Source: Microbacterium esteraromaticum (GTDB taxonomy: Bacteria > Actinomycetota > Actinomycetes > Actinomycetales > Microbacteriaceae). Taken from it: 64,000 nt of DNA. The notes under the pieces were generated by a model. That model was not told where the DNA came from and did not search any database. It was given only the letters and a program-made list of their open reading frames with translations. The position numbers and the translations under genes were made by a program. Where the stretch lies: NCBI RefSeq assembly GCF_014084045.1, contig NZ_CP043732.1, forward strand, positions 1,426,001 to 1,490,000, written 5' to 3'. Positions 4,573 through 47,196 of this stretch are shown piece by piece. Each line of letters starts with the position of its first letter. The first letter of the stretch is position 1.

Positions 4573-6993
<2,421 letters not shown>

Positions 6994-40675: not shown

Positions 40676-40704
40676 CGTCGGGCCGTCGCCGGGTGCCTGT
40701 CGCA

Positions 40705-40792
40705 TGTCGGAGATCTCGGACGATTCGAGCCCTGGCCGGAGTGGCGGCGTGCGCCACGCCGGCGCTGGATCGGATGGTCTGGTGGTTCCGAC
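40705..40792. repeat. dispersed palindromic repeat, TGTCGG family, intergenic copy 1
   Basis: Begins TGTCGGAGATCTCGGACGAT and ends GGTCTGGTGGTTCCGAC, so its ends form an imperfect inverted repeat. The right end (40771-40792) matches the repeats inside pxpBC (45478-45499) base for base over 22 bp; the left end matches a stretch inside the CopA-type gene (6129-6150). It fills the gap between two convergent genes. Confidence 0.8.
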
Positions 40793-40797
40793 CTGGC

Positions 40798-41316
40798 TCA
40801 GGTCGAGCGGAAGACGGTGTGCAGGTCGCCGATGACGTCGCGGCCGCCGAGGCCGTCGATCTCGAACAGCACGCTGATCCCTGCGACGGTGTAACCGAGC
40901 CTCTCGACGATCTCCCGTCCGGCGGCGAGCGTGCCGCCGGTGGCGAGCACATCGTCGATGAGCAGGATGCGGGCTCCTGCCGGCAAATCGTCGTGCATCT
41001 CCACGGTCGCGGTGCCGTACTCGAGCGCGTAGTCGACGGAGGCCGCCGGGCGGGGCAGCTTGCCCGCCTTGCGGATCGGGACGAAGCCGACGCCGGCGCT
41101 GATCGCGGCGGCCCCGGCGAGGATGAACCCGCGCGCCTCGATTCCGGCGACGACGTCGAAGGTGCCGGCGAAGGGCTCGACGAGCGCCGCCGTCGTGGCG
41201 TGCAGCGCCTCGGCATCCGCGAGAAGCGGCGTGATGTCGCGGAACAGGATGCCGGGCTGCGGATAGTCGGGGATCGAGGCGATCAGGGACTCGGCGCGCG
41301 CCAGTTCTGAGTTCAC
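40798..41316 (-). CDS. apt: adenine phosphoribosyltransferase
   Basis: A 172-residue type I phosphoribosyltransferase: PRPP-binding loop ILLIDDVLATGGTL, the flexible RKAGKLPRP loop, VVAGIEARGFILAGA, and FRDITPLLAD near the N-terminus, all as in APRT. It makes AMP from adenine and PRPP, salvaging adenine. It starts at GTG 41316, divergent from the beta-glucosidase gene. Purine salvage here complements the nucleoside hydrolase cluster at 53-58 kb, though the two are not linked in an operon. Confidence 0.94.
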   Translation of the reverse strand: MNSELARAESLIASIPDYPQPGILFRDITPLLADAEALHATTAALVEPFAGTFDVVAGIEARGFILAGAAAISAGVGFVPIRKAGKLPRPAASVDYALEYGTATVEMHDDLPAGARILLIDDVLATGGTLAAGREIVERLGYTVAGISVLFEIDGLGGRDVIGDLHTVFRST

Positions 41317-43884: not shown

Positions 43885-43973
43885 TGTCGGAAACCTCGGA
43901 CCGTTCGCTCCGCAGGCGGTGTGTCGTGCCCCGACACGCCGCGCGACGGGCATCCGGTCTGAGAACCCCGACA
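43885..43973. repeat. dispersed palindromic repeat, TGTCGG family, intergenic copy 2
   Basis: Begins TGTCGGAAACCTCGGACCG and ends GGTCTGAGAACCCCGACA, an imperfect inverted repeat of about 18 bases per arm with a CACGCCGC core. It closely matches the copy at 47108-47196 in both ends and core. It fills the gap between the CebR-type gene and pxpA. Confidence 0.8.
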
Positions 43974-44798: not shown

Positions 44799-46571
44799 GT
44801 GCGCGTGCTGACCGCCTCCGACCGCGCCCTGCTCGTCGAGTGCGCCGACCTCGACGAGGCCATGCGGATGCATCGCGCCTGGGCCGATGTGCCCGGTGTT
44901 CTCGAGCGGGTGCCGGGTGCGCGCACGGTGCTCGTGCGGTTCGACCCGCTGCGGACGTCGGCTGACGAGCTCGCGCTCGAGCTGACCGCGGTCGTCGCAG
45001 GCGGCTCGGCGCAGGCATCCGGAGTCGAGGTGACCGTGCCGGTGCGCTATGAGGGAGAGGATCTCGGCGACGTGGGCGAGATGCTCGGCGTCTCGACTGC
45101 GGAGCTGATCCGAAGGCACAGCGCAGCACGCTGGACGGTCGCGTTCACCGGCTTCGCGCCGGGATTCGGCTATCTCGTGGGCGATGATCCGCTGTTCGAC
45201 GTTCCGCGCCGCACGTCGCCCCGCACACGTGTGCCCGCCGGATCGGTGGCGCTCGCCGGACGGTTCAGCGGCGTGTACCCGCGCGAGAGCCCTGGCGGAT
45301 GGCAGCTGATCGGAACCGCGGATGCCGTGATGTGGGACGTGCATCGAGACCCTCCGGCCCTGCTCGCACCCGGCACGGTCGTGCGTTTCGTGGACGCGGA
45401 GCGGGCTGCTGTGTCGGGGGTCTCGGATGCTTCGGTCGCGGAGCGGCGTGTCGAGTCGCGGCGCGCGGGTGGTGGGCCGGATGGTCTGGTGGTTCCGACG
45501 GGCGCGGGTGCGCGTGCTGCTGTGTCGGGGGTTTCGGATGCTTCGGCCGCGGAGCGGCGTGTCGAGTCGCGGCGCGCGGGTGGTGGGCCGGATGGTCTGG
45601 TGGTTCCGGCGGGCGCGGATGAGCGTGCCGTCGAGGTCATCGATCCGGGGCTGCAGCTTCTCGTGCAGGATCTCGGCCGGCCCGGCCACGCCGAGCTCGG
45701 GGTTCCGGCATCCGGAGCCGCCGACCGCGTCGCTCTCCGCGACGCGAACCGCGCCGTCGGCAACGCCCCTTCCGCGGCCGTGTTGGAGGGCGTCGGCGCG
45801 ATCGCACTGGGATTCCGCGGAGCCGGGGTCGCGGCCGTCGCGGGCGCCGATGCCGAGCTCGCGGTGATCCGTGCCGACGGGAGGGCCGTCAGCATCCCTC
45901 ATGGCGCCCCGTTCGCCGTGGCCGACGGCGACCGGCTCGAGATCGGTCCGCCGATGCGAGGGCTGCGGGTCTCGATCGCGGTGCGCGGCGGCATCCGGAT
46001 GCCCGATCAGCTGGGCAGCCGATCGACAGACACCCTCTCTGGGATCGGCCCCGCGCCCCTGCGGGCCGGCGACCTCATCGCGATCGGCGACGCCCCGACG
46101 ACCGCGGTCGAGTCGGCGTCGCCGCCCCGCGAGCTGCCGGCACCCGGTGACCTCACCGTGCTCGACATCACACGTGGTCCCCGCGACGACTGGTTCGTGC
46201 GCGATTCGGTCGGGCTGCTGACCGAGCAGGAATGGCTGGTCACTCCGCGCTCCGACAGAGTCGGCATCCGCCTGCACGGCGAGCGTGCTCTGCAACGCGC
46301 GATCCCCGACGAACTGCCCAGCGAAGGAGCGGTCGCCGGTGCCATCCAGGTGCCTTCCGACGGGCAGCCCGTGCTGTTCGGTCCCGACCATCCGACGACG
46401 GGTGGCTATCCGATCATCGGCGCGCTGACCGACCGTGCCCGCGACCTGGCGGGCCAGCTGCCGCCCGGAGCGCGCATCCGGTTCCGCCTCGCGTCGGGAA
46501 TCTCAGACGATTCAGCGGGCACACGGCGCGTCGACCCTCGACACGCCTGGTCGCGGCCATTCGGTCAGTGA
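44799..46571 (+). CDS. pxpBC: 5-oxoprolinase subunits PxpB and PxpC fused, with repeat-derived linker
   Basis: A 590-residue fusion. Residues 1-200 are PxpB/KipI-like (VAFTGFAPGFGYL, then GRFSGVYPRESPGGWQLIG); residues about 278-565 are PxpC/KipA-like (VIDPGLQLLVQDLGRPGHAELGVPASGA, ending DHPTTGGYPIIGAL). The linker is odd: two tandem 37-residue copies (204-240 and 241-277), each reading AVSGVSDAS, ERRVESRRAGGGPDGLVVP, encoded by 111-bp repeats that match a dispersed intergenic palindromic element. The C-terminal tail GISDDSAGTRRVD comes from the same repeat family. It starts at GTG 44799 and its end overlaps the convergent cinA-like gene by 7 bp. Confidence 0.9.
   Translation: MRVLTASDRALLVECADLDEAMRMHRAWADVPGVLERVPGARTVLVRFDPLRTSADELALELTAVVAGGSAQASGVEVTVPVRYEGEDLGDVGEMLGVSTAELIRRHSAARWTVAFTGFAPGFGYLVGDDPLFDVPRRTSPRTRVPAGSVALAGRFSGVYPRESPGGWQLIGTADAVMWDVHRDPPALLAPGTVVRFVDAERAAVSGVSDASVAERRVESRRAGGGPDGLVVPTGAGARAAVSGVSDASAAERRVESRRAGGGPDGLVVPAGADERAVEVIDPGLQLLVQDLGRPGHAELGVPASGAADRVALRDANRAVGNAPSAAVLEGVGAIALGFRGAGVAAVAGADAELAVIRADGRAVSIPHGAPFAVADGDRLEIGPPMRGLRVSIAVRGGIRMPDQLGSRSTDTLSGIGPAPLRAGDLIAIGDAPTTAVESASPPRELPAPGDLTVLDITRGPRDDWFVRDSVGLLTEQEWLVTPRSDRVGIRLHGERALQRAIPDELPSEGAVAGAIQVPSDGQPVLFGPDHPTTGGYPIIGALTDRARDLAGQLPPGARIRFRLASGISDDSAGTRRVDPRHAWSRPFGQ
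45408..45629. repeat. two tandem in-frame copies of the TGTCGG-family repeat inside pxpBC
   Basis: Copies at 45408-45518 and 45519-45629, each 111 bp (37 codons), differ at only a few bases. Each contains TGTCGGGGGTCTCGGATG-like left ends and the CGGATGGTCTGGTGGTTCCG right end shared with the intergenic copy at 40705-40792. The length is a multiple of three, so the reading frame is kept. Confidence 0.9.
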
Positions 46572-47041
46572 TCCCCCGCACCGTCCACCCGGCCGGCGTG
46601 GAAGGTCAGCAGCTGCACCGCCGCCTCTACCGTGGCCTCGAGCACCTCGTCGGGCTCCCCGTCGAGGGCAAGGCGCCGGTGACCGGCGCCGTCGCGTGTC
46701 GCCCACCCGAGGAACACGGTTCCCGCGGGGTGCCCGTCCTCGGCATCCGGACCCCCTACGCCCGTCGTCGAGACGCACAGGTCCGCATCGAGCAGCTCGC
46801 GCGCGCCGCGAGCGAGCTGCTCGGCGCACTCCGCCGAGGTCGGGTCGCGATCGGCGGGAAAGCCGAGCACCCACTCCTTCACCTCGGGAAGGTACGCCAC
46901 GACGCCCCCGCTGAACCAGGTGCTCGCCTCGGCGCCGGCGCCGACGGCGCTGGCCAGCGCTCCCGAGGTGAGCGATTCGGCTACCGCCACATGCAGGTGA
47001 CGGCTTCGGGCGAGATCGGAGAGAGCGGTGACGTCGACCAT
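46565..47041 (-). CDS. CinA-family nicotinamide-nucleotide amidohydrolase (PncC type)
   Basis: A 158-residue stand-alone CinA C-terminal domain: VAVAESLTSGALASAV with the catalytic Ser-Thr region, TWFSGGVVAYLPEVKEWVLG, and the C-terminal CVSTTGVGGPDAEDGHPAGTVFLGWA. PncC-type enzymes deamidate NMN to nicotinate mononucleotide, recycling NAD from, for example, DNA ligase. There is no CinA N-terminal domain, so it is not the full competence protein. It starts at ATG 47041 and overlaps the pxpBC end by 7 bp. Confidence 0.92.
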   Translation of the reverse strand: MVDVTALSDLARSRHLHVAVAESLTSGALASAVGAGAEASTWFSGGVVAYLPEVKEWVLGFPADRDPTSAECAEQLARGARELLDADLCVSTTGVGGPDAEDGHPAGTVFLGWATRDGAGHRRLALDGEPDEVLEATVEAAVQLLTFHAGRVDGAGDH

Positions 47042-47107: not shown

Positions 47108-47196
47108 TGTCGGAGGCCTCGGACGGTCGGGCGCATGCACGGCGAGTCGTACCGCGACACGCCGCCCTGCGGACGTCTGGTCTGAGATTCCCGACA
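47108..47196. repeat. dispersed palindromic repeat, TGTCGG family, intergenic copy 3
   Basis: Begins TGTCGGAGGCCTCGGACGG and ends GGTCTGAGATTCCCGACA, with a CACGCCGC core; near twin of the copy at 43885-43973. It lies in the 258-bp gap between the cinA-like gene and the metalloprotease gene. Confidence 0.8.

Follow-up and report, generated by a model that had tools for sequence, protein, structure and literature searches.

The pxpBC locus and the repeat unit

The window analyzed here is a 64,000-nt stretch (positions 1,426,001 to 1,490,000) of the 3,367,524-bp single-contig genome of Microbacterium esteraromaticum (G000). It contains a gene, pxpBC, in which the PxpB and PxpC halves are joined through a linker that contains two tandem repeat copies. 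Unaided repeat finding detected these copies as 111-bp units at 45401–45511 and 45512–45622 that are 95% identical and revealed a weaker third copy at 40694–40804 (62%). A preceding sequence-only reading had described the same two tandem 111-bp copies. While they are indeed found at 45401–45622, the true unit is an 89-bp element, with the two linker copies lying 22 bp apart, and 111 bp corresponds to one element plus a 22-bp spacer. The unit length is thus not, as had been stated, a multiple of three. Coordinates are collected in Table 1.

Table 1. Genes and element copies in the window. R1 is a covariance model built from 13 aligned copies.
Feature	Coordinates	Strand	Basis
CopA-like copper ATPase gene	4573–6993	+	Pfam and alignment to 3rfu
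Element in frame within the copper P-type ATPase gene (about 30 residues)	6131–6219	+	
Element between convergent genes	40705–40793	+	
Element between two plus-strand genes, 40 bp after the first gene	43885–43973	+	
pxpBC: CT_C_D (residues 1–189) fused to CT_A_B (300–563), two linker elements between	44799–46571	+	Pfam
Element, first linker copy, in frame in pxpBC (VSGVSDASVAERRVESRRAGGGPDGLVVPT)	45412–45500	+	R1
Element, second linker copy, frame as in first	45523–45611	+	R1
Full 89-bp element across the pxpBC 3′ end	46492–46580	+	R1, E 1.3e-9 genome-wide
Element, top-scoring genome copy	47108–47196	+	

The sequence-only reading had correctly placed two of the related copies (43885–43973 and 47108–47196), and the longest exact match between the first linker copy and the copy at 40705 is 22 bp, as it reported. 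It missed the copy inside the copper ATPase gene. What it took for a 55-bp fragment supplying the PxpBC C terminus (46496–46550) is part of a full 89-bp copy, which encodes the C-terminal tail and contains the TGA stop codon (46569–46571). The convergent gene at 46565–47041 on the minus strand, which we take to be CinA-like, also terminates within this copy.

Thirteen copies could be aligned without gaps, and their alignment has dyad symmetry centered on column 45. Its conserved boxes occupy columns 2–17 (GTCGGAnnTCTCGGAC-like) and, as their mirror image, columns 73–88, so that the element has 16-bp terminal inverted repeats, as miniature inverted-repeat transposable elements (MITEs) do. An inner palindrome with 10-bp arms spans columns 33–42 (CGGCGTGTCG) and 48–57. 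The remaining columns (18–32, 43–47, and 58–72) are variable spacers.

Copies across the genome and the constancy of their geometry

When the genome was searched with R1, at least 37 distinct places were found at a best E ≤ 1e-4, and the next new place appeared only at E 0.2; the count is a lower bound, with 150 of 13172 first-look candidates scored. Nearly all copies are exactly 89 bp long (one is 88 and one 99 bp), and seven lie in the window. The first linker copy is up to 0.75 identical to other copies in its own genome, compared to a mean of 0.43 and a maximum of 0.48 for 200 single-letter shuffles. The similarity is thus above chance, and the repeat is dispersed, as the sequence-only reading proposed.

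As judged with a simple custom gene caller (GC by codon position), 33 of the 37 copies are intergenic, two of them overlapping the end of a gene, and 4 lie inside genes. Among the intergenic copies, 24 separate genes of the same direction and 9 separate convergent genes. None of the 33 lies between divergent genes, although 35% of intergenic bases in the G000 stretches fetched are located there. The copies are also clustered: 14 of 25 sites have a neighbor within 5 kb (null mean of 1.76 and maximum of 8 in 5000 randomizations).

Conservation differs sharply between the parts of the element. Within G000, boxes are 0.76 and spacers 0.44 identical (22 dispersed copies, one per site or array; 0.30 is expected at random), and within G094 the values are 0.84 and 0.39 (11 copies). 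Between G000 copies and their counterparts in G092, boxes are 0.83 and spacers 0.72 identical (16 pairs; Fisher p 1.5e-6, with positions that are not independent and array partners picked by the analyst); one of the counterpart pairs is shifted out of register, with a score of 0.52. In G094, 19 of the 21 exact end motifs fall inside elements found by the model, 1 belongs to another pair of equal spacing, and 1 is solitary. When nearly exact motifs are included, ten end pairs are found in this genome, all 69 bp apart (30 matches, compared to 3 for the reversed motif). Variants of 99 bp with a longer center occur at matching places of G000 and G092 (L191 4120–4218 and L219 8196–8294).

Such constancy raises the possibility that intergenic copies are putative host-maintained sites, recognized by a DNA-binding protein or forming an mRNA 3′-end structure that needs boxes at exact distances and is selected site by site. 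The excess of box over spacer identity, both within genomes and between counterparts, the uniform 69-bp spacing, and the avoidance of divergent intervals all point in this direction. So does the nature of imperfect box pairs, which on the transcribed strand are G·T in 95 cases and A·C in 33 (24 copies); this excess is, however, driven by a few arrays, and by site the tally, made by hand, is 9 to 7 with 2 ties. Imperfect box pairs are almost exclusively G·T in the 339-kb array (17:0), the 855-kb array (26:1), and the window at 45412–45611 (17:0). The scarcity of covariation speaks against such selection. Among the 96 copies of exactly 89 bp, out of 108 collected from several genomes, 2378 of 4224 mirror pairs are Watson-Crick, with 2332 expected from column composition, so that little remains beyond composition; a clear excess, of 11 to 16, is seen at pairs 10/80, 42/48, and 44/46. 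In the 13 aligned copies, none of the 18 pairs predicted showed a change on both sides. The absence of a match at E ≤ 1e-4 from 238 of 295 genomes of the genus is a further difficulty. We give a host-maintained site an appreciable, though less than even, probability, and it is compatible with the explanation preferred below. A full RNA hairpin or structured RNA family finds little support, covariation being nearly absent, and no Rfam family matched within the window at the gathering score.

The sequence-only reading also recommended searching for a co-occurring RAYT, the Y1 transposase that would move the element if it were of the REP or REPIN type. The element is palindromic, mostly extragenic, and clustered, as this reading would have it. 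However, PF01797 was detected in none of nine element-bearing genomes examined, while the control gave hits in 6 of 14, which makes movement by a RAYT very unlikely.

In the genus, at least 57 of 295 genomes, including G000, match R1 at E ≤ 1e-4, a lower bound given strict filters and 14 candidates scored per genome. A broader model, R2, matched 8 of 396 genomes of the order, including G000 (11 candidates scored per genome), all from this genus and a second genus of its family. Two weak R1 matches, in G052 (E 4.6e-5) and G051 (E 7.7e-4), which belong to other families of the order, would speak against a strict family limit.

Among 198 genomes searched, G092 is the closest to G000 by PxpBC (82%), while in the MenD tree G099 and G059 are nearer. 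By our reading of the comparison, 20 of 25 G000 sites are shared with G092. Of the other five, the site at 1044470 seems empty in G092, that at 2197324 is replaced, and no place could be assigned to those at 889179, 959989, and 2786031. Since most sites are common to both genomes, no recent movement was caught. Copy number within arrays does differ, with 3 versus 1 copies at 339 kb and 5 versus 2 at 855 kb in G000 and G092, respectively. Copies of the 855-kb array are 0.92 identical within G000 (four of five copies) and 0.97 within G092, but 0.77 between the genomes. No consistent target-site duplication was seen in the flanks inspected, the apparently empty site at 1044470 being ambiguous in this respect, and an end-motif search of one genome, G094, revealed no evident autonomous partner sharing the ends.

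In-frame copies in PxpBC, MenD, and CopA

The element is read in one common frame in PxpBC, CopA, and MenD (ASEFSDETDAGRRVTDGHADGGPDDPTVPT; Pfam names), yielding related peptides. MenD is the clearest case of what appears to be in-frame insertion. Among 30 genomes, six carry the element in menD (G000, G092, G099, G281, G094, and G152, the last with two copies), G059 shows a short insert, possibly a remnant, other repetitive sequence is present in G309 and G207, and 21 have no insert. The G000 genome has one MenD match. The insert amounts to 31 residues, or 93 bp, in G000, G092, G099, and G281 (counted by hand) and is located where the solved MenD sequences 9dqi and 5erx have gaps. In the MenD tree, the nine insert-bearing genomes form one clade (support 0.992), which adjoins the insert-free G204. 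The element of G000 and G092, however, is shifted ~9 bp to the left relative to that of G099, G281, and G094. Because of this offset a single insertion is not proven, and there may have been one event or several.

In CopA, the insert falls in a region that solved 3rfu lacks, residues 500–556 being unmatched when the two are aligned. Among 30 genomes, 5 carry the element at this place, 2 a second repeat family, 3 other long inserts, and 20 a short loop, some of the latter perhaps being paralogues. As in Rickettsia palindromic elements (RPEs), then, the element is found in frame in unrelated conserved genes of which some orthologues are without it. The earlier proposal that it may enter coding sequence in frame is thus supported by relatives without the insert in both MenD and CopA. 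Related peptides were also seen inside an MFS-like transporter (G029) and a methyltransferase-like protein (G207) and as the tail of two further proteins, a membrane protein (G309) and an ABC-ATPase-like one (G001), names that we read from the sequences by eye.

An automatic frame call placed 12 of 124 element positions, some places being entered more than once, inside a gene, and 10 of the 12 in the common frame. These ten are not independent (three in CopA, two in MenD, four in PxpBC, and one in the methyltransferase-like gene). The two others are an antisense open reading frame opposite pxpBC in G092 and the MFS-like gene of G029, whose element is 86 bp long and whose peptide fits the pattern. 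Ten positions fell into a weak right-side class (frames 0, 1, and 2 in 4, 3, and 3 cases) and seven into a C-terminal class (3, 1, and 3), with no call for 95. All these counts are rough, the caller having placed the two linker copies of the window on the antisense strand. Elements over gene ends use other frames as well.

The pxpB-pxpC fusion itself is widespread. A motif search found the genes fused at 27 of 30 loci of the genus, two loci having no motif match and one lying at a contig end, and fused genes with other linkers are also present in Brachybacterium, Enemella, and Propionicimonas. The Propionicimonas linker (L078) reads PEPVEG...PFDKLRDR, which, judging by its pattern, is presumably another palindromic repeat translated in frame. 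The sequence-only reading held that the element helps fuse genes, and its presence in the linker at 11 of 23 loci scanned with the model (of 30 fetched; the seven more distant ones were left out), as well as in G281 and G307, could be taken to mean that it created the fusion by bridging pxpB and pxpC. But 12 of the 23 linkers are without it and other genera have the fusion with other linkers. Creation of the fusion by the element is accordingly improbable, and the distribution leans toward a fusion older than the element.

Could the linker be an ordinary low-complexity protein linker whose DNA resembles the repeat by composition? The linkers show no conservation and have a high content of Ala, Arg, and Gly, as would be expected. 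Yet the E values of the two linker copies (1.1e-16 and 2.1e-15 with R1), the fixed 89-bp length, the intergenic copies of equal length and pattern, and the genomes with insert-free MenD refute this explanation, which is almost certainly wrong. Nor is the linker conserved throughout the orthologues, which the sequence-only reading had named as refuting its model: linkers vary in length and carry different repeats.

The G000 linker copies are 0.97 identical to each other. They are closest to the linker copies of G092 (0.88–0.93) and then G099 (0.80), while copies elsewhere in their own genome reach 0.75 at best. Since linker copies are nearer to their counterparts than to non-linker copies at home, the linker element looks inherited, with the tandem pair probably homogenized. 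The same comparison (0.92 for the G092 counterpart against 0.75 at home) makes it less likely that the linker was converted by intergenic copies, one of the routes of spread that had been suggested.

A second repeat family, with the motif GGTCGTTGAGCGAG, occupies some of the same places. The motif is counted 326 times in G207, 91 in G204, 56 in G122, 12 in G000, 3 in G092, and 1 to 21 times in the other eight genomes counted (reversed motif, 0 or 1 per strand). G207 has this family in both its MenD and its CopA loop, G204 in the CopA loop and the pxpBC linker, and G122 in the pxpBC linker. The pxpBC linker of G147 contains it too, yet only 1 copy was counted in that genome, and abundance is therefore an incomplete explanation. 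The repeat in MenD of G309 differs from GGTCGTTGAGCGAG. Outside the window, seven GGTCGTTGAGCGAG copies lie on one strand within 1.4 kb (G000:C1:1170163-1171517).

Nature of the family and relation to known repeats

The element probably represents a Microbacterium family of miniature dyad-symmetric interspersed elements, with 16-bp inverted ends and an inner palindrome at fixed distances, that survive in frame in protein loops. This explanation builds on the observed architecture, clustering, tandem arrays, positions between tandem or convergent genes, insert-free relatives, and common frame in PxpBC, CopA, and MenD; the mobility of the element we infer from its distribution. Copies would have spread locally in the past and would now be mostly static. 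A copy that inserts into a surface loop or linker would survive only if the frame is kept and this hydrophilic frame of the element is read, with a net addition of 31 codons in the case of MenD, and would then be inherited as part of the protein. Against this explanation stand the conserved boxes with near-random spacers, which plain copying of the whole element would not predict, as well as the lack of a consistent target-site duplication, of an autonomous partner in G094, and of recent movement, the offset in MenD, and the other frames used over gene ends. A tentative and rather unlikely extension is that a putative host-kept DNA site of exact geometry, its boxes selected place by place and its spacers free, doubles as a portable peptide cassette of ~30 residues; the MenD and CopA loops and the PxpB-PxpC linker would then be permanent docking sites at which unrelated repeat families succeed each other in evolution.

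Mycobacterial MIRUs are likewise actinobacterial intergenic repeats of variable tandem number but are not known to be dyad-symmetric. In the sources reached, the family is not described for Microbacterium; with preprints and most subscription papers outside their scope, this is weak evidence. Palindromic repeats that sit in frame have been described from Rickettsia and Wolbachia and among some other MITE families (PMC2229807). The resemblance to RPEs noted in the sequence-only reading holds by analogy: RPEs are small palindromic elements with inverted ends, present between genes and in frame in conserved protein genes (PMC10969869 and PMC2229807), and here too some relatives lack the in-gene copies. 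RPEs are, however, 105–146 bp long (PMC2229807) compared to 89 bp, and the present element differs in its GC-rich actinobacterial host, boxes with near-random spacers of fixed length, and the occurrence of other repeats at the same loops. Likened by description rather than by sequence, it may be regarded as an analogue of RPEs, not a member. Enterobacterial RU-1, RU-2, and RU-3 are also MITE-like repeats with reading frames and intragenic copies (PMC2759123), but they have other hosts and lengths of 127, 168, and 103 bp. GTAG and CGTC REPs, as characterized in PMC3733652, share a location between tandem or convergent genes, a possible supply of stop codons, and G-T pairing, whereas the element described here is longer and composite and no RAYT was found in nine genomes bearing it.

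The family would thus be an actinobacterial analogue of RPEs with an unusual fixed-geometry build, and copying in the manner of a mini-transposon, as usually pictured, does not account for fixed geometry combined with free spacers. Inside a gene, a copy would encode ~30 additional amino acids, as a loop or linker. With many sequenced species, filled and unfilled loops, and other repeats at the same places, the question of selfish DNA versus protein innovation, and the spread of such elements, would be directly testable in this genus.
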